DNA of 64,000 bases from Nitrospirales bacterium LBB_01 (GTDB taxonomy: Bacteria > Nitrospirota > Thermodesulfovibrionia > Thermodesulfovibrionales > Magnetobacteriaceae): positions 1 through 64,000 of the forward strand of contig CP049016.1 in assembly GCA_004376055.2 (NCBI GenBank), written 5' to 3'. The translations under genes were made by a program, and so were the position numbers. This document shows, piece by piece, positions 6,535 to 16,131 of this stretch (positions within the stretch are counted from its first letter, which is position 1; every line of letters starts with the position of its first letter). The notes beneath the pieces were generated by a model. That model was not told where the DNA came from, searched no databases, and worked only from the letters and a program-made list of their open reading frames with translations.

Positions 6535-8964
6535 ATGTCAACGATAGCTATAAGCATAGAAGAGGAGATGAAGGTAAGCTACCTGGATTACGCTATGAGC
6601 GTAATAATAGGGAGGGCGCTGCCGGAGGTAAGGGACGGTCTGAAACCTGTGCAGAGGCGTATTCTGTATGCGATGTTTAGAGAGGGGCTGCTCTCTAACA
6701 GGAGGTACTCAAAGTGTGCCGGTGTTGTCGGAGAGGTGCTAAAGAAGTATCATCCTCATGGTGACAGCGCAGTCTATGATGCGCTTGTGCGTATGGCTCA
6801 GGATTTTAACATGAGGTATCCTTTAATAGACGGTCAGGGTAACTTTGGCTCTATGGATGGCGACCCTGCTGCGGCATACAGATACACTGAGGCGAGGCTT
6901 TCTAAGATTGCCGAGGAGCTCCTTAACGACATAGATAAGGAAACGGTTGATTACATCCCCAATTTTGATGAAACCACCGAGGAGCCTGTCGTTTTACCTG
7001 CTACCGTGCCTAATCTTATCATAAATGGAGCCTCAGGAATAGCAGTAGGTATGGCTACAAACATTCCTCCACACAATCTTGGTGAGGTGATAGACGCTTT
7101 GCTGCATTTGCTTGAAACACCAGAGTCTGAGATAGAGACCCGTGATTTAATGAAATTCGTAAAAGGCCCGGACTTTCCAACCGGAGGCATCATTTTTGGT
7201 TTGCAGGGGATTATCAATGCCTATGAGACCGGACGCGGGCAGATAAAGGTGCGCGCAAAGGCTAATTTTGAACAAAGAGGGCGCAGCGGAGAAAGCATTA
7301 TTGTAACGGAGCTGCCGTATCAGGTAAATAAGGCGCGTCTTATGGAAAAAATAGCAGAGCTAGTAAGAGAGAAAAAGATTGAGGGAATTTCTGACTTGAG
7401 AGACGAGTCCGACCGTGACGGCATCCGAATGGTAATTGAGATAAAACGGGATGAGATGGCACAGGTGGTTTTAAATAATCTCTATAAGCATACAGCGATG
7501 GAATCCACCTTTGGAGTGATCATGCTGGCGCTTGCCGGTGGGCAGCCAAGGGTGATGGGGCTAAAGACCATTCTAAGTCATTTCCTTAGACACAGGCGTG
7601 AGATAGTAATTAGGCGCACTCGGTTTGATTTACGGAAAGCGGAGGAGCGTGCCCATATATTGGAGGGCTTGAAGATTGCCCTTGATAACCTTGACGCTAT
7701 AATAACACTTATCAGAGCGGCAGAAACTCCTGAAATAGCACGTCGCGGTCTTATAACCGAATTTCCGCTCTCAGAAATTCAGGCTAACGCTATCCTTGAG
7801 ATGCGCCTGCAGAGACTGACCGGTCTTGAGCGCGAAAAAATCGTAAGTGAATACAATGAGATTATAAAAGAGATTGAGAGTTTAAGGGCAATACTGGCAA
7901 GTGAGGCGCTGATAGCTCAGATTATAAAGACGGAGCTTTTGGAGATCAGAGAAAAGTACGCCGATGAGAGACGCACAGAAATTGTTGCGGATATTTCTGA
8001 AATCTCAGTAGAAGATCTTATAACCGAAGAGGAGATGGTTATCACAGTTTCCCATAACGGCTATATAAAGAGAAATCCACTGTCTGAGTACAGACGGCAA
8101 AGGCGCGGCGGTAAGGGATCAATTGGGATGGAAACACGCGAAGAGGACTACGTTAAGCAATTATTTATCGGCTCAACGCATGACCATATACTGTTTTTTA
8201 CAAATCTTGGGCGGCTCTATTGGCTTAAGATTTATCAGATACCGGAAGCTGGGCGAGCGACTAAGGGCAAAGCGATAGTGAATCTGCTTCAGTTACAATC
8301 GGGTGAAAAGCTGGCAACGGCGCTTCCGGTTAAAGGATTTCAAAGCGGCTACCTGATGATGTTTACAAAAAAGGGTATTGTGAAAAAAACGCAGCTCTCG
8401 GAGTTTAGCAATCCTCGCAGTAAGGGCGTCATTGCTATTTCTATTGATGACGATGACGAGCTTATAGCGGTAAAGATGACTGACGGCAGATCTGATGTGA
8501 TAATAGGAACACAGTTTGGACATGCTATAAGGTTTAACGAAGACGATGTCAGAGATATGGGGCGAGGAGCACGTGGAGTAATCGGCATCCGCTTAAAGAG
8601 CAAAGACGAGGTAGTGTCGGCTGATGTAACAGATGATAGGTCAACCCTGCTAACGGTAACTGAGCTGGGTTACGGTAAGAGGACAAAGGCTGTGGAGTAC
8701 AATGCACAAAGCCGCGGCGGACAGGGTGTAATCTCAATTAAGATAACGGAAAAAGGCGGCAAAGCGGTGGGTCTCATTCAGGTGCGAGATGATGATGAGA
8801 TAATGCTTATCACAAAAGCAGGCAAGCTAATCCGCACACCGGCAGAAAATATACCGGTAACTGGTAGAAACACGCAAGGGGTCAGGATTATGGACGTGGG
8901 CCCAGAGAACATGATTGTAGGAATCGGTAAATCAGCCGAAAAGGATACTAAGCCGGAAGAGTAG
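6535..8964 (+). CDS. gyrA: DNA gyrase subunit A
   Basis: This is the DNA cleavage and rejoining subunit of gyrase. The 809-residue product starts with [25 protein letters not shown]. It has the quinolone-pocket segment [10 protein letters not shown] with Ser78 and Asp82 (susceptible-type residues), and the catalytic tyrosine in [11 protein letters not shown] (Tyr117). The C-terminal beta-pinwheel carries a GyrA box, QRRGGKG, near residue 521, which marks gyrase rather than topoisomerase IV. The ATG is preceded by AGGAAAACT. The next gene starts only 8 bp after the stop, although it looks foreign in composition. Confidence 0.98.
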
Positions 8965-8972
8965 AAGTTAAT

Positions 8973-11900
8973 ATGAAGCGGATTACTGCAAAAGATTTAG
9001 AGCGATGGGCTGATGCCCGTCAATCAGAAGCTGACTTACCGGAACTGATAAAGCTTCTGATTTTTGCGTCTGCAAAAAATATTGCCAGCATACGATTTCC
9101 TTCTTGTGAGTATGTTAATCGTGCCGGTTGGGATGGACAGCTCATTTGTTCAGATGGATTACCACAATTTGTTCCAAAAGGAAATTCTGTATGGGAATTA
9201 TCAACATCGAAAGATGTTTCAGGCAAAGCATGGAGTGATTTTGACAAACGTTCATCAAAAAGTGGGAGACCTTTACCGGCTGATTTTGAATTTGAAACTA
9301 CTACTTATGTTTCTGTTTCTCTTAGATTTTGGAATGAACCAACAAAAATAGAACGTAATTCTCGTGATGGTTTTATAAAAGAGGCTAAATCACGTAATAT
9401 CTGGTCGGATGTTAAAGTACTGGATGCAACAAATTTAGAGGATTGGATTAAACAGTATACTTCAGTTGGGCTATGGTTAGCAGATTTAGGAGTTGGCACT
9501 TTATCTGCAAAAGTTAAAAGTATTGATGAGGTATGGGAACTTTGGAGTAATATCAGTATCCCCCCAATAACTGAAAGTCTGATTTTAACAGAACGAGAAG
9601 AACACAAAACAAAACTAGTTGATTTGCTTATGCAAAAATCAGAAATTATTCGAATCAGAGCAGATTCACCACAAGAAGCACAGGCATTTGTAATTTCTGC
9701 AATTAAATCCTTAAATGGAAATGACCAACGATATTATCATTTATATTCAAGGTCAATAGTTGTAAATGATGAGGAGACAGTAAGACGGTTACTAAATAAC
9801 GAACATACTCTTTTAATCATAATATTGGGAGATGCTGTTAGAGAATCTGCAGGAATGCTTACAGCAAAAGGCCATACCGTTGTCATCCCTTTGGGTAATT
9901 CACATAAAGAAACACCAGATATTTTTCTTAAACGTCCCGGTCTAAAAGCATTTGCTAATGAGCTTCACAGATCAAGCAATATTAGTTTGGACGATGCACA
10001 ACTTAAAGCACGTAGTTGTAGGCGAAGTGTAACAGTATTTCAACGACTATATCCTTCAGGTACTGCACCAAGCCCGCCGTGGGAAAATAATTTAGAACCA
10101 CTTATCCCTGCCATATTTGCAGGGGCATGGAAAAATGGAAATAACAATGACAGGCAGGTTATTGAAGCGTTATCAAGAGACAAATCATACGAAGAAGTGG
10201 TTCAAGATTTACATCAATTTCTTTCAGAGGATGACCCGCCCATTTTACGTATAGATGATGTTTGGACTCTTTCGGCTCCGGTTGATTCTTTTACACATGC
10301 AAGTCGTTTAATAACAGAATTTGATTGGCAACGTTTTAGTGATGCTTGTGCTTATGTTTTTAGTGAAATTGACCCATGTATAGACTTACCAGCAAATGAA
10401 AAAATGTTAGCTAATATAACAGGAAAAACATTACCCCATTCTAAATGGCTTAGAGATGGACTTGCTCAAACATTATTACTTATTGCAGTACATGGAGATG
10501 GTCGTATGTTCCCACACAATTTAAAGAACCAAATGTTTGTTGATGAGTTAATAAGGCAATTACCAGGACTTTATACAAACAGCAGACTTTTGATAAGCCT
10601 TAGTCAGCAGTTACCGGTACTGGTTGAGGCAGTGCCTGACCCTTTTGTTGAAGCCCTGGAGTGTCTGCTTCAGGGCAAAGACGAAATAGCAAAAACCATA
10701 TTTACCGATAGTGATTCTCCATTATGGACATCCTCTCCGCATACAGAAATATTATGGGCTTTGGAGATGCTTGCTTGGGATCCGCAATGGCTGGCACGTG
10801 TCTGTATAATACTGACAAAGCTCTCAGAAATTGACCCTGGCGGTACTTATTCAAATCGTCCTATAAACAGTTTATACAAGATTTTTTTACCGTGGCGTCC
10901 CGGAACTAATGCGACCCTAAAAGAACGAATGGAGGTGATAGACCTTATTCTTAGAGATTCGCCAGAAAAAGGATGGAATTTAATAACAAGTTTGTTACCA
11001 AAAATTCATGAAAGTGCTTCTCCTACATATGAACCTTTATGGCGTGAAGCCGGAAAATCACAACGTGAAGTATTTACAGATGAAATTGAACAATCTACCT
11101 ATAATGAAATTATCAATCGTGTTTTAGATAATGTTGGAAATAAACCTGAACGATGGAGGGTTATTTTAGATTCATTTCCACGTTTAACTCCAGTTCAACG
11201 CATAAAAGCTTATGATATGTTAGAATCTGTTCCAAAGGTGAATTTAAGCGAAGATATAATGTATGATTTTTGGGAATTATTTCGAGAATTTACATATAAA
11301 CATAAAGCGTTTAGTGATGCTTTTTGGGCGCTTCCCGGAAATGAAATTAACAGGTTGCAAAAAATAGTTGAGTCCTTTGAACCTTTTAATCTAATAAAAC
11401 GATATAAATGGCTGTTTGACAACTTTAGTCCGCTTTTACCAAGTCAAAATAAACCAGAGGTTGATTCATCTGCAGATTTAAAGTCATTACGCCATGAAGC
11501 CCTAAAAAATATAATCAAGGCAGACGGTACTGTTGGGATATTAGAGTTTGGAAATACTGTTTCATTTCCTAGTCTAATATCTGATTCTTTAATTGAATAT
11601 TTTAGTAACTTAGAGGAATTATTTCAATTTATAGAAAAAACTAAAAGTTATGGAAATAACGGAAAAATAATATCCAGAGTTCTATCCTCTCATGCTTATC
11701 TGAAGTACGGGAAAGAGTGGAAAAAATATTTATTTAATCATATAAAAATGAGTAATTGGGATAATGAGTTAGTGGCAAATGTGATTTTAGATTGGCCTGA
11801 TAATATGGATACATTTTCATCAGTAAACTCTCTTGGCACTGACATAGAGAATTTATATTGGTCAAAACGTTCGGCATTTATAAATGAACCTTCAAAGGAG

Positions 11901-12797
11901 ATTTGTACATTTTTTATAAAGAAACTTATTGAGGTGAAAAGGTCTGTTGATATGGTACATTCTGTCTATAGATTTGCCTCTTCCATAGAGACTGAATTAC
12001 TTATTGATCTTTTAGATAGCGTTTTAGAGGAATTGAGTATGAAGTCTGAAAGTAAGCAGGTTAATTTGGATAGCTATGATGTCAGAGAAATATTTGATAT
12101 ATTAAGAAAACGCGATAATATTTCACATGATAAACTATTAAAACTTGAATATTTATATTTACCTTTGTTAATAGAGGTTGGCGGTAAAAGTGAACTAACC
12201 TTACATAAAAGTCTTGCCTCTGAACCGGAGTTTTTTATAAATATTGTTTGTGACGTGTATAAACCATCATCAGGTATTGAAGAGGAAACCATAGATGAAA
12301 ATACAAAAGCACGTGCACAACTGGGTTTCCGTTTATTAAACGCATGGAAAACACCTCCGGGGTTGATGGATGATAACTCTTTCGATGCCGATAAATTAAA
12401 AAGTTGGATAGAAAAAACCACAGAGCTTGCTAAGGAGAAAAACCGCCTTGAAATTGCAGATTATCACATAGGCAAAGTACTCGCTTATGTTCCTGATGAC
12501 CCTGATGACAATGTATGGCCGCATAAAGGCGTACGTGATATTTTTAAATTATTAAATGATAAAATTGAAGAGGGAATGTTAGCAGAGCAATTGGTTATAC
12601 AAGGTGTGTACCAGAAGAGCATTAATGAAGGTGGAGAACAAGAACGAGAGTTATCAAATAAATGGAAGGAAAGGGCTCACGCCGTAGGCAATAGATGGCC
12701 AAGCACTAAGGCGTTACTTAATAAGATAGCTAAAATGTGGGAAAACCAAGCTGAACAAGAAGATATACAAGCTGAGCTTAGAAATCTCAATAGATGA
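8973..12797 (+). CDS. Large protein: putative PD-(D/E)XK-like N-terminus, degenerate STAND-like NTPase, helical C-terminus
   Basis: I do not recognise a named family for this 1274-residue protein. Residues 1-175 resemble a restriction-endonuclease fold: RAGWDGQ (Asp54), then SVWELSTSKD with Glu75 and nearby lysines 80 and 85. Residues 200-345 look like the start of a STAND NTPase, but the P-loop is replaced by RADSPQEAQAF (about 229-239). A Walker B-like hydrophobic strand ends in LIIILGD near 281-287. The remaining roughly 900 residues appear alpha-helical and repeat-like, ending INEGGEQERELSNKWKERAH. The gene is visibly richer in A+T than gyrA and contains many TTA and ATA codons, suggesting transfer. 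Nuclease-sensor architectures of this kind are common in phage defence, but that role is inference. It has no obvious partner gene. Confidence 0.6.
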   Translation: MKRITAKDLERWADARQSEADLPELIKLLIFASAKNIASIRFPSCEYVNRAGWDGQLICSDGLPQFVPKGNSVWELSTSKDVSGKAWSDFDKRSSKSGRPLPADFEFETTTYVSVSLRFWNEPTKIERNSRDGFIKEAKSRNIWSDVKVLDATNLEDWIKQYTSVGLWLADLGVGTLSAKVKSIDEVWELWSNISIPPITESLILTEREEHKTKLVDLLMQKSEIIRIRADSPQEAQAFVISAIKSLNGNDQRYYHLYSRSIVVNDEETVRRLLNNEHTLLIIILGDAVRESAGMLTAKGHTVVIPLGNSHKETPDIFLKRPGLKAFANELHRSSNISLDDAQLKARSCRRSVTVFQRLYPSGTAPSPPWENNLEPLIPAIFAGAWKNGNNNDRQVIEALSRDKSYEEVVQDLHQFLSEDDPPILRIDDVWTLSAPVDSFTHASRLITEFDWQRFSDACAYVFSEIDPCIDLPANEKMLANITGKTLPHSKWLRDGLAQTLLLIAVHGDGRMFPHNLKNQMFVDELIRQLPGLYTNSRLLISLSQQLPVLVEAVPDPFVEALECLLQGKDEIAKTIFTDSDSPLWTSSPHTEILWALEMLAWDPQWLARVCIILTKLSEIDPGGTYSNRPINSLYKIFLPWRPGTNATLKERMEVIDLILRDSPEKGWNLITSLLPKIHESASPTYEPLWREAGKSQREVFTDEIEQSTYNEIINRVLDNVGNKPERWRVILDSFPRLTPVQRIKAYDMLESVPKVNLSEDIMYDFWELFREFTYKHKAFSDAFWALPGNEINRLQKIVESFEPFNLIKRYKWLFDNFSPLLPSQNKPEVDSSADLKSLRHEALKNIIKADGTVGILEFGNTVSFPSLISDSLIEYFSNLEELFQFIEKTKSYGNNGKIISRVLSSHAYLKYGKEWKKYLFNHIKMSNWDNELVANVILDWPDNMDTFSSVNSLGTDIENLYWSKRSAFINEPSKEICTFFIKKLIEVKRSVDMVHSVYRFASSIETELLIDLLDSVLEELSMKSESKQVNLDSYDVREIFDILRKRDNISHDKLLKLEYLYLPLLIEVGGKSELTLHKSLASEPEFFINIVCDVYKPSSGIEEETIDENTKARAQLGFRLLNAWKTPPGLMDDNSFDADKLKSWIEKTTELAKEKNRLEIADYHIGKVLAYVPDDPDDNVWPHKGVRDIFKLLNDKIEEGMLAEQLVIQGVYQKSINEGGEQERELSNKWKERAHAVGNRWPSTKALLNKIAKMWENQAEQEDIQAELRNLNR

Positions 12798-12838
12798 CTA
12801 ACTTATGTGGTAAAGATGACAGACGGAAAGACTAACTA

Positions 12839-13744
12839 ATGGACATAAGGATTGCAGTTTTAAAAATTCTTAACCGGATTTTTCCTCTTAAAATGGAGGG
12901 GGATGCCGTTGTTGGCTCAGCAGCAAATGAGCGTGATGTCTCGTGTGTGATAAATTTTTATGGTCGGATAGACTTATTAGAGGGCATCCTCTATTGCCTT
13001 GTCGAGCAGGACTTGCCAAAGGACAGATACGAAGTCATATTGGTAGAGGACAGGGGCGGTACAAGTGAGGGGTTTGCTGCTTACAATAAATTTAAGGACA
13101 AAATGAATGTCTCATACTACAGTCTCAGCGAAAAATACGGCATGATGGGCTACGCCAGGAACTTTGCTATAAACAGGGTCAAAGGGAAATATTGTCTGCT
13201 TTTGGATGATGATACCATACTAACAGGCAATGACTTTCTTACAACTCTCATAGATGACTTTATCCGCACTGGAGCTGATGCCATAATACCGCATGGCAGC
13301 GCTGCGTTTTGTCTTTGGAAAGAGAAATACTGCTACCACGAACCACACTTTCCAACCAGCCGATGTATGGCATATACCACAGAGGTTCTAAGTAAGCTGC
13401 ACGGTTTTGTCTCATCTATAATAGGGCAGGAGGATGTTGAATTTGTGGTTCGTTTCCTTGCCTCAGGCAAAAAGTTCTACAAGTCCGACAGACTAAAATA
13501 TCTGCACCCGCCTTTTCTTGTTAATAATTTGAGTAAACCCATAGCCGTTGGCAAGTCTATAGCAGGACTTAAGAAAAGATACCATCCGCTTATATACTCT
13601 ATGCTAATAGTAAACGGTGCAAGACATTTACCACTGCTCTTTTCACCTGTCAGTATGAAAAGCCGTATGCAGGGCAAATTCGCTCTCGGCTTTATAATAG
13701 GTGTGTTCTATTATTTCTTAAATTTGAAAGCCGATTATAAATGA
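12839..13744 (+). CDS. Glycosyltransferase family 2 protein
   Basis: This GT-A fold enzyme of 301 residues is expected to transfer a sugar from a nucleotide-sugar donor; the acceptor is unknown. After about 35 residues comes the family start SCVINFYGRIDLLEGILYCL, then YEVILVEDRGG, GYARNFAINRVKGKYCLLLDDDTIL with the metal-binding DDD, and the later IIGQEDVEFVVRFLASGKKF, which matches the ED catalytic-base region. One or two hydrophobic stretches near the C-terminus (about 255-295) could be membrane-associated. It stands alone between the large putative defence gene and a repeat element, so its pathway cannot be read from context. Flagellin glycosylation is possible because flagellin genes lie close by, but this is only a guess. 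Confidence 0.85.
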   Translation: MDIRIAVLKILNRIFPLKMEGDAVVGSAANERDVSCVINFYGRIDLLEGILYCLVEQDLPKDRYEVILVEDRGGTSEGFAAYNKFKDKMNVSYYSLSEKYGMMGYARNFAINRVKGKYCLLLDDDTILTGNDFLTTLIDDFIRTGADAIIPHGSAAFCLWKEKYCYHEPHFPTSRCMAYTTEVLSKLHGFVSSIIGQEDVEFVVRFLASGKKFYKSDRLKYLHPPFLVNNLSKPIAVGKSIAGLKKRYHPLIYSMLIVNGARHLPLLFSPVSMKSRMQGKFALGFIIGVFYYFLNLKADYK

Positions 13745-13750
13745 GAATAA

Positions 13751-13967
13751 AATGCTTATTGAGTTAACTCCTGTAGATTTTTTTCAGTCAGCAAATGATA
13801 CAGTTAAAAGGACTGGATTCCCGCTCGTAGGCGGGAATGACAAAGTGAAAAAGGCGGGAATGACAAAGGGGGGCTATTTCTTTTTTTTGTCAATCCTTTT
13901 TTTCTTGTCATTCCTGCGAAGGCAGGAATCCATTTTTTTGTTTGCGGAGCTAACTGCATAGGCAATT
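13751..13967. mobile_element. MITE-like element with terminal inverted repeats, copy A
   Basis: This 217-bp copy has related ends. The left end reads AATGCTTATTGAGTTAACTCC and the right end, on the opposite strand, reads AATTGCCTATGCAGTTAGCTCC. It is flanked by a 7-bp direct repeat AGAATAA (13744-13750 and 13968-13974). Inside are the family hairpins ATTCCCGC/GCGGGAAT and ATTCCTGC/GCAGGAAT. It has no transposase, so any movement needed an enzyme from elsewhere. It fills most of the 325-bp gap between the glycosyltransferase and the flagellins. Confidence 0.8.
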
Positions 13968-14069: not shown

Positions 14070-15086
14070 CTATTTTAGCAGTGCAAGCACATTTTGCGGA
14101 GATGAATTCGCCTGCGCAAGTACCGATATGCCTGACTGCTGTAAAATCATAGACTTGGTAAGATTAGCCGTTTCTGCTGCAAAATCGGCATCCATTATCC
14201 TTGACCTTGAAGCCTGTGTTGTCTCCAGTACATTCTCTAAATTTCTTATATTGGCCTCAAGTTGATTACCTTTAGCGCCCATATCAGCCATAGCGCTTGT
14301 TACAAAAGTTAGAGCAGAGTCAATAATGGCTATAGCGTTTGATGCCTGAGACTTGAAACCTGTCAAACTTGTTGAATCAGCCACCTGAAACGACGCTATC
14401 CCGCTATAAGCAAAAGCGCTTTTTGCAGTGTAACTATAATTAGGCGGAAAACCAAAGCCAGCAAGGGTTGTAAATGAACCATCACCTATGCCGTTTACCC
14501 CAACTGAGGTAGCAGTGTGAATATCTTTTAGAAACATCATGGGACCATCTTTACCGGTCGGTGAAAATGTGGGGCCGCCTAAGGCGTCTGTGTTCATAGA
14601 GCCGATTGTAATTTGTACCTGTGAATCGCTGGCTGCAAAGCTTGTCTGAAGTTTAGTATGAAAGTGGCCGTCAAGCAAGCGCTGACCATTAAACTTGGTC
14701 TGCTCCGCTATTCTGCCAATTTCTTCAACAAGAACATTGACCTCCTTCTGCATGTTTGCCACATCAGTTACACCATACTGCCCGCTCATTGCCTGAACTC
14801 CAAGCTCTCGTATCCTCTGAAGGTTATTGATAACCTCTGACATTGAACCCTCTGCAGTCTGAACCACTGAGAGACCATCATTGGCATTTCGTTCTGCTAC
14901 CGTTAAACCTCGTATCTGAGAGCTCATTCTTGTTGCTATGGCAAGGCCTGCGGCATCATCAGCAGAAGAGTTTATCCTGAAACCAGATGATAACCTTTTC
15001 ATCGCATTTTGCAAAGGTCCCTGTGTTTTATACAGGTTCCGCTGTGCATTAATAGACATTATGTTTGTGTTAATTACGAAAGCCAT
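14070..15086 (-). CDS. fliC: Flagellin (downstream tandem copy)
   Basis: This is a filament subunit of the flagellum, exported by the flagellar secretion system. The 338-residue product has the conserved N-terminal D0/D1 domain (MAFVINTNIMSINAQRNL, LSSGFRINSSADDAAGLAIA) and C-terminal D1/D0 domain (NLENVLETTQASRSRIMDADFAAETANLTKSMILQQSG, ending QANSSPQNVLALLK). The short variable middle (about 165-245) differs most from its twin. The ATG is preceded by AGAGGATAG. It lies 28 bp after the other flagellin and is probably transcribed with it from the sigma-54 promoter further upstream. Confidence 0.96.
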   Translation of the reverse strand: MAFVINTNIMSINAQRNLYKTQGPLQNAMKRLSSGFRINSSADDAAGLAIATRMSSQIRGLTVAERNANDGLSVVQTAEGSMSEVINNLQRIRELGVQAMSGQYGVTDVANMQKEVNVLVEEIGRIAEQTKFNGQRLLDGHFHTKLQTSFAASDSQVQITIGSMNTDALGGPTFSPTGKDGPMMFLKDIHTATSVGVNGIGDGSFTTLAGFGFPPNYSYTAKSAFAYSGIASFQVADSTSLTGFKSQASNAIAIIDSALTFVTSAMADMGAKGNQLEANIRNLENVLETTQASRSRIMDADFAAETANLTKSMILQQSGISVLAQANSSPQNVLALLK

Positions 15087-15114: not shown

Positions 15115-16131
15115 TTATTTTAGCAGTGCAAGCACATTTTGAGGGGATGAATTTGCTTGTGCCAGTACCGATATGCCCGATTGCTGTAAAATCATAGCCT
15201 TTGTAAGATTTGCCGTTTCTGCTGCAAAATCGGCATCCATTATCCTTGACCTTGAAGCCTGTGTTGTCTCCAGTACATTCTCTAAGTTTCTGATATTGGC
15301 CTCAAGTTGATTAGCCTTAGCGCCCATATCAGCCATTGAGCTTGTTACAAAATTCAGCGCAGAGTCAACTATGGCTATAGCGTTTGAGGCCTGAGATATG
15401 AAACCTGTCAAACTGGTAGAATCAGCTATCTGGAATGATGCAGCGCCGCTGTATGCTATAGTGCTGCTGGCTGTAAAACTGTAGTTAGGTGGAAAACCAA
15501 ACCCGGAGCCACTTACAAATGTACCGTCGCCTCTACCGTTTACCCCAACTGTGGTAGCAGTATGTATATCTTTCAGAAACATCATAGGACCACTTTTATC
15601 GGTTTTTGTAAATATGGGACCGCCTAAGGCGTCTGTGTTCATAGAGCCCAGTGTAACTTGTACCTGTGAATCACTGGCCGCAAAGCTTGTCTGAAGTTTG
15701 GTATGAAAGTGTCCGTCAAGTAAACGAATCCCATTAAACTTGGTCTGTTCCGCTATTCTGCCAATTTCTTCAACTAAAACATTGACCTCTTTCTGCATGT
15801 TTGCCACATCAGTTACACTGTACTGCCCGCTCATTGCCTGAACTCCAAGCTCCCGAATTCTCTGAAGGTTATTGATAACCTCTGACATTGAACCCTCTGC
15901 AGTCTGAACCATTGAGAGACCATCATTGGCATTTCGTTCCGCTACAGTTAAACCGCGTATCTGAGATGTCATTCTCGTTGCGATTGCAAGACCAGCGGCA
16001 TCGTCGGCAGAAGAGTTTATCCTTAAACCGGATGATAACCTTTTCATCGCATTTTGTAAGGGTCCCTGTGTTTTATACAAATTCCGCTGTGCATTAATAG
16101 ACATTATGTTTGTGTTAATTACGAAAGCCAT
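15115..16131 (-). CDS. fliC: Flagellin (promoter-proximal tandem copy)
   Basis: This second 338-residue flagellin is near-identical to its neighbour over both conserved ends. It differs mainly in the middle (for example DGTFVSGSGFGFPPNYSFTASSTIAYSG here and DGSFTTLAGFGFPPNYSYTAKSAFAYSG there), the surface-exposed part of the filament. Equal length and matching order point to a recent tandem duplication. The start codon follows GGGGGTAG. A sigma-54 -24/-12 element lies about 72 bp upstream. Two slightly different subunits may be built into one filament, as in other multi-flagellin bacteria. Confidence 0.96.
   Translation of the reverse strand: MAFVINTNIMSINAQRNLYKTQGPLQNAMKRLSSGLRINSSADDAAGLAIATRMTSQIRGLTVAERNANDGLSMVQTAEGSMSEVINNLQRIRELGVQAMSGQYSVTDVANMQKEVNVLVEEIGRIAEQTKFNGIRLLDGHFHTKLQTSFAASDSQVQVTLGSMNTDALGGPIFTKTDKSGPMMFLKDIHTATTVGVNGRGDGTFVSGSGFGFPPNYSFTASSTIAYSGAASFQIADSTSLTGFISQASNAIAIVDSALNFVTSSMADMGAKANQLEANIRNLENVLETTQASRSRIMDADFAAETANLTKAMILQQSGISVLAQANSSPQNVLALLK

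Follow-up and report, generated by a model that had tools for sequence, protein, structure and literature searches.

The gene at positions 8973–12797 of a 64,000-nucleotide stretch of Nitrospirales bacterium LBB_01 (contig CP049016.1, positions 1–64,000), hereafter the window, probably encodes a single-gene immune receptor, a reading to which we give a probability of roughly 60%. The protein would be a sister of PD-Lambda-4_A with an Avs-like build, in which a PD-(D/E)XK DNase is followed by a pseudo-STAND domain with a winged helix and then by a solenoid sensor. STAND/NLR-type switches in general are held to need nucleotide binding by their P-loop. The P-loop is missing here, and the switch of a receptor of this type may no longer use ATP. 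We infer for the window protein a trigger, oligomerisation, nuclease activity, a part in defense and independence of ATP.

A sequence-only reading of the window had picked out this open reading frame (ORF), and its limits, its 1274 codons and the motifs quoted from it all stand, GWDG being residues 52–55, SVWELSTSKD residues 72–81 and RADSPQEAQAF residues 229–239. Used by itself as a query, the protein gave nothing usable in Pfam, NCBIfam or PDB sequences, and no relatives in genome or viral contigs. Relatives were recovered by tblastn on plasmids and by searching with an alignment of relatives. The window family thus assembled has at least 78 members, about 25–30% identical to the window protein, in several phyla and on both plasmids and chromosomes; a pattern scan with one genome per species yielded 52 near-complete homologues.

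PD-Lambda-4 (PD-λ-4) was found in an experimental phage-defense selection from the E. coli pangenome, according to Vassallo et al. 2022 (PMC9519451). The PADLOC profile for PD-Lambda-4_A (PDLC03991) matches the window protein weakly and collinearly (E 0.004; residues 591–660 to positions 594–663 of 1283), with 12.8 bits vs 381 for PD-Lambda-4_A members, and matches 9 of 15 window-family members directly (best 5e-5). When the two families were compared by hhalign, they aligned over residues 1–1274 with a probability of 99.7 and E 4.8e-26. A repeat gave a probability of 100 and E 6e-43, one reversed control and four controls shuffled by column giving E 0.07–0.96. The nuclease domains alone align with a probability of 96.9% (E 3e-10), and the C-terminal parts alone at E 7e-26. 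Because the single-sequence PADLOC E value is only 0.004 despite this full-length profile homology, the window protein is placed by these comparisons as a sister of PD-Lambda-4_A, not a member. True members do occur in the phylum, as the profile search found proteins matching over their whole length (e.g., L157, E 2.7e-114).

The two families are alike in length (1274 residues in the window protein, 1283 in PD-Lambda-4_A) and in collinear domain order, both having a PD-(D/E)XK domain with G-x-D at the equal place, a STAND-like domain and a long helical C-terminus. On the other hand, the nuclease of the window family has E75...K85 where PD-Lambda-4_A has Q-x-K, and the window family lacks the intact Walker A and B motifs of PD-Lambda-4_A. 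All nine PD-Lambda-4_A proteins that were aligned, each with an intact N-terminus, carry Walker A (GPSGFGKT, GEPGIGKT and similar), and most of them a clear Walker B. By mean pairwise identity, the NTPase is the most conserved domain of PD-Lambda-4_A (0.39); in the window family the nuclease is highest (0.38) and the NTPase-like domain lowest (0.28), with values outside the nuclease of 0.28–0.32. Component B of PD-Lambda-4 had no PADLOC match in the two genes flanking the window gene, gyrA and a glycosyltransferase gene, and was not found beside the scanned PD-Lambda-4_A genes of the phylum either.

Structures were predicted with AlphaFold2 from an alignment 44 sequences deep, with a mean predicted local distance difference test score of 88.5 for residues 1–560 and 86.6 for residues 370–1274. 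The model points to a PD-(D/E)XK nuclease at residues 1–178. Helix 18–33, strands 37–41, 55–59 and 70–77, helix 82–94 and strand 110–116 form the alpha-beta-beta-beta-alpha-beta core, in which D54 and E75 take the acid positions on strands 2 and 3. In VIA, the catalytic domain of MspJI (PDB 4f0p) matches residues 1–173 (Z 8.3, root-mean-square deviation 4.0, 139 aligned, 9% identity), which agrees with the earlier guess of a nuclease-like N-terminus. Asp54 and Glu75, also guessed then, belong to a set of residues invariant in the 52 sequences, namely G52, D54, G70, W74, E75, K85, D89 and R93. The lysine of the superfamily, two residues past the second acid, is replaced by S77 in the window protein and by G in most relatives. 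We propose that the invariant K85 is a putative relocated catalytic lysine in place of that x-K.

Residues 178–441 are predicted to have a P-loop-NTPase-like fold. In a Foldseek search with these residues, the sole match with E <0.001 was Avs3 bound to phage terminase (E 3.8e-5), followed by FtsH, Apaf-1, RFC and Dark. VIA returned Apaf-1 (Z 8.6 over 159 residues), the NRC4 resistosome (Z 8.6 over 249) and ClpC/ClpB (Z 9.1). Because AAA+ proteins such as ClpC/ClpB match as well as Apaf-1, the assignment to STAND rests on the overall architecture, an NTPase fold and then a winged helix between effector and sensor, as in STAND/Avs proteins. No function was read from the ClpC/AAA+ matches. The sequence-only reading had placed a STAND ATPase at this position, and the predicted folds are indeed related to STAND/AAA+ ATPases as well as to nucleases.

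At the P-loop position, the model has a strand (225–229), a 3-residue loop and a helix (233–245). The P-loop had been called ruined. It is absent, but not by local ruin, because none of the 78 members of the window family contains Gx4GK[ST] anywhere, and Walker B is absent across the family too. The family has its own motif there, approximately A-[DET]-[STA]-x-x-E-[AV]-x-A-F, in which Glu235 and Phe239 never vary among the 52 sequences. The ratio of nonsynonymous to synonymous substitution rates (dN/dS) in 12 close pairs is 0.05–0.13 for the NTPase-like domain, as for the nuclease domain, so that the domain is under strong purifying selection. Because the loss is family-wide and dN/dS low, the P-loop appears to have been lost long ago and the domain kept since.

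The remaining residues are helical, as had been noticed, although they number about 830 (447–1274) rather than about 900. Foldseek and VIA matched them to karyopherins, CAND1, PP2A and condensin HEAT proteins, with moderate VIA Z values, as usual for such folds. Table 1 lists the coordinates.

Table 1 Features of the window gene, its site and its domain-swapped relatives (window positions unless a locus is given)
Feature	Position	Strand	Basis
Protein gene, apparent P-loop-less sister of PD-Lambda-4_A	8973..12797	+	1274 aa, ATG start, no internal stop
Predicted PD-(D/E)XK nuclease domain, residues 1-178	8973..9506	+	AlphaFold2, VIA (MspJI), PD-Lambda-4_A profile match
Asp54, invariant catalytic-acid position in G-x-D-G motif	9132..9134	+	52/52 sequences
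Glu75, invariant, strand 70-77; replaces Gln of PD-Lambda-4_A Q-x-K motif	9195..9197	+	52/52 sequences
Lys85, invariant, in helix 82-94 after strand 70-77	9225..9227	+	52/52 sequences; AlphaFold2 model
STAND/AAA+-like domain without Walker A or B, residues 179-365	9507..10067	+	AlphaFold2, Foldseek, VIA, alignments
ADSPQEAQAF at P-loop position, residues 230-239	9660..9689	+	AlphaFold2 model, alignments
Winged-helix-like domain, residues 366-446	10068..10310	+	inferred from AlphaFold2 topology
All-helical HEAT/ARM-like solenoid, proposed sensor, residues 447-1274	10311..12794	+	AlphaFold2 model; Foldseek, VIA
gyrA, gene preceding insertion, 809 aa	6535..8964	+	conserved in 19/21 genomes searched
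Inserted segment, holding this one gene and very little besides	about 8966..12826		empty site in congener G003, locus L151
Family 2 glycosyltransferase gene, other flank of empty site	12839..13744	+	PF00535, E 2e-14
Solenoid fused to or overlapping Q-x-K nuclease-like domain, no NTPase	L022:5107-8670, L158:2963-6502, L159:3129-6698, L160:3314-6866, L161:3813-7437

As an immune receptor, the protein would work as follows. The alpha-solenoid would bind a product of the phage or some other signal of infection, and this sensing would release or rearrange the pseudo-STAND/winged-helix module. The module would gather the nuclease domains by protein contacts alone, without ATP in a P-loop. The nuclease (D54, E75 and probably K85) would then cut DNA and infection would stop, probably at the cost of the cell. 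Avs3 (PDB 8dgc) and Avs5 are likewise single chains that combine an effector, a STAND-like domain and a sensor made of repeats, whereas the sensor of the window protein is of a different, HEAT/ARM-like kind. Avs5 needs its P-loop, as its Walker A mutants lose immunity (PMC12931631); the window family has none.

A STAND domain predicted to be inactive, iSTAND, was already described by Kaur et al. 2020 (PMC7159879) from ternary systems whose other two genes are MoxR and vWA. By its description, iSTAND is like the window protein in having effector-type domains in front of such a domain, as part of a conflict system. Unlike iSTAND, the window protein is encoded by one gene and has a nuclease and a giant solenoid, and neither MoxR nor vWA was found among the flanks of the window gene, the listed neighbor annotations or the listed Pfam families. 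No description of such a one-gene version was found in the open-access papers searched. The plant NRCX would have been a precedent for an NLR lacking the P-loop, but was rejected because its P-loop is reported to be intact (PMC9851556).

The distribution of the family is that of mobile genes. By tblastn, 23 plasmid records were matched, 18 of them with at least 80% of the query covered and 25–30% identity, and 12 of the 23 are typed conjugative. Hosts of homologues include Rhizobium, Bradyrhizobium, Burkholderia, Pseudomonas, Raoultella and Acetobacter, and metagenome-assembled genomes labeled Myxococcales, Acidobacteria and Actinomycetes. In the family tree the phyla are intermixed. Full-length members occur in 11 of 396 genomes of the phylum of LBB_01; most matches in that search were XRE-domain noise and were not counted. 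Within the genus, only the window genome has a full copy.

Defense genes often accompany the relatives. Directly beside 41 homologue loci lie 18 AbiEii and 17 AbiEi genes, and near the plasmid loci are genes for Abi, SieB, SIR2, AbiEii, RES-Xre, restriction-modification, Shedu SduA and reverse transcriptase. AbiE was found 0 times among 71 genes around loci with the helix-turn-helix (HTH) domain only, a weak control taken mostly from one orthologous rhizobial region. Defense neighbors, for which a survey had been suggested earlier, are seen beside relatives but not beside the window gene.

Several points weigh against an immune receptor. In the nuclease motif, S77 stands in place of the canonical lysine of x-K, and the NTPase region alone matches PD-Lambda-4_A weakly (E 0.003). 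In VIA, AAA+ proteins do no worse than Apaf-1 (Z 9.1 for ClpC, 8.6 for Apaf-1). Most of the AbiE association is due to a single clade, and the control for it is small. The window gene itself lies outside any defense island, its neighbors being gyrA, a glycosyltransferase gene and flagellin genes. We also found no report of a defense test on any P-loop-less member of the family.

A restriction-like enzyme would account for some of the same evidence. The solenoid or a fused XRE domain would read foreign or modified DNA and the MspJI-like nuclease would cut it, with neither a protein trigger nor a switch, and with the pseudo-NTPase as a mere spacer. The closest solved nuclease fold is indeed that of MspJI, a modification-dependent enzyme, most relatives have an XRE helix-turn-helix fused in front, and the solenoid matches include HEAT proteins that bind DNA, condensin being one (Z 7.3). 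However, the likeness to MspJI is confined to the catalytic domain, and the window protein lacks the MspJI domain that reads bases in DNA. The whole-length homology is to PD-Lambda-4_A/Avs-type proteins instead. The XRE fusion, missing in the window protein and in about half of the members in the phylum, looks regulatory. We therefore consider this enzyme unlikely.

The XRE domain bears also on a second possibility, that the protein is nuclease-dead or a non-immune regulator, a plasmid-carried scaffold or transcription regulator with a dead NTPase. Several relatives are annotated ‘helix-turn-helix transcriptional regulator’, and S or G at the x-K position would fit a dead nuclease. This is less probable still, because all 52 sequences keep D54, E75 and K85, the nuclease is the most conserved domain, and relatives swap it for a Q-x-K nuclease-like domain rather than lose one.

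The swaps were seen as follows. In Shewanella baltica OS117, G136 and G348, a solenoid 26–28% identical to that of the window protein (E <1e-60) is joined to a different N-terminal domain with a QIKHS or QVKNS motif, and there is no NTPase domain. This Q-x-K domain looks Cap4-like by eye and matches nothing in Pfam. In G246 and G063, the Q-x-K domain and the solenoid are separate, overlapping genes. A DNA search of E. coli genomes with a Shewanella relative gave nothing. In Buttiauxella, the solenoid gene follows a gene with a HetE-N domain (PF20701, E 1.5e-40), named after a fungal NLR-like protein. Incidentally, the solenoid protein on the Buttiauxella plasmid pBTX_57 (L018:5561-8655) opens with a VSQNHTGTGHNVAGDL-type N-terminus.

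Because the NTPase-less relatives nest inside the P-loop-less family with high tree support, the order of events suggested by the tree is that the P-loop was lost first and then the whole NTPase domain. A fuller history, which we hold as possible but somewhat short of even odds, would start from an ATP-dependent, PD-Lambda-4_A-like ancestor. The P-loop would have been lost once, the dead STAND domain would have become a nucleotide-free mechanical switch, and a later branch would have dropped the module and exchanged the nuclease. If this is true, the family forms a natural series from which it would follow that an Avs-type sensor needs no ATP to fire its nuclease. The P-loop-less family, its loop-keeping sisters and its domain-less derivatives offer a direct comparison for the role of ATP in such receptors. 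With this family, the PD-Lambda-4 kind also reaches many plasmids and phyla in which the PADLOC profile scores too low for a call.

Broken copies also exist in the family. G011, of the same bacterial family as LBB_01, has a copy with an in-frame deletion of residues 264–885, and the congener G001 holds a 134-aa C-terminal remnant. The window gene could by analogy be a decaying copy of a former PD-Lambda-4_A-like gene that lost its ATPase, but its ORF is full length and keeps the key invariant residues of the family. The P-loop loss is common to members in several phyla and accompanied by purifying selection, and therefore does not reflect decay of one gene, so that a decaying copy is very improbable. 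Incidentally, the G011 copy (L164:3817-5757, contig C37) is the closest relative of the window protein, at 42–47% identity, and the deletion leaves a 647-aa ORF consisting of the nuclease and the solenoid end. A Uma2-type gene (L164:2991-3509; PF05685, PADLOC PDC-S03) directly adjoins it, and a similar gene lies beside the remnant in G001 (L003).

The window gene starts 8 bases past the stop codon of gyrA (8962–8964), and had been thought to be inserted. This is seen directly in the congener G003, whose gyrA DNA is 88% identical. There, the sequence corresponding to window position 8965 is followed 11 bases further along by that of window position 12827, and the glycosyltransferase gene adjoins gyrA with no insert between. 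The window gene is thus a single-gene insertion. As had been claimed, it is A+T-rich, with a GC content of 0.32–0.43 vs 0.45–0.47 for gyrB/gyrA. A housekeeping partner of gyrase, which its place behind gyrA might suggest, is contradicted by the empty site, by other DNA behind gyrA in two more congeners, by the sporadic presence of the gene and by its relatives on plasmids, and we practically dismiss it. The insert (about 8966–12826) contains no integrase, transposase, tRNA, terminal repeat or target-site duplication that we could find, and there is no tRNA anywhere in the window. The right junction has 18 bp resembling gyrA (12809–12826), which could have been a sign of recombination but are probably due to chance and were set aside. 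The glycosyltransferase gene was rejected as a partner gene, because it adjoins gyrA without the insert in G003 and has no PADLOC match.

Promoter and terminator scans gave no excess over shuffles. Because the gene starts so close behind gyrA and lacks the repressor-like XRE domain, read-through from gyrA probably accounts for its expression. In the two further congeners (L153 on G002:C34 and L152 on G001:C1), the DNA behind gyrA is unrelated. Every congener examined has something different there, which suggests that turnover at this place may be frequent.

Some PD-Lambda-4_A relatives with intact Walker A (L191:1697-5791, L192:1369-5451 and L193:2044-6108) have an apparent N-terminal HTH extension. 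Beside them is a pair of genes that resembles AbiE by eye but that PADLOC does not call AbiE. Two PD-Lambda-4_A relatives of the phylum (L190:305-970 and L198:4696-5727) are near a PD-T4-10_B gene and a PDC-M45B/M19A candidate defense gene.

Further downstream in the window, a 17-mer, AGGCGGGAATGACAAAG, is repeated at 13829–13917 with an inverted partial copy, possibly as a small mobile repeat. A similar sequence (75% over 129 bp) also lies downstream of gyrA in G001. Two flagellin-like genes, both of 338 aa, follow in tandem (14070–15086 and 15115–16131), and are in tandem in G003 too.

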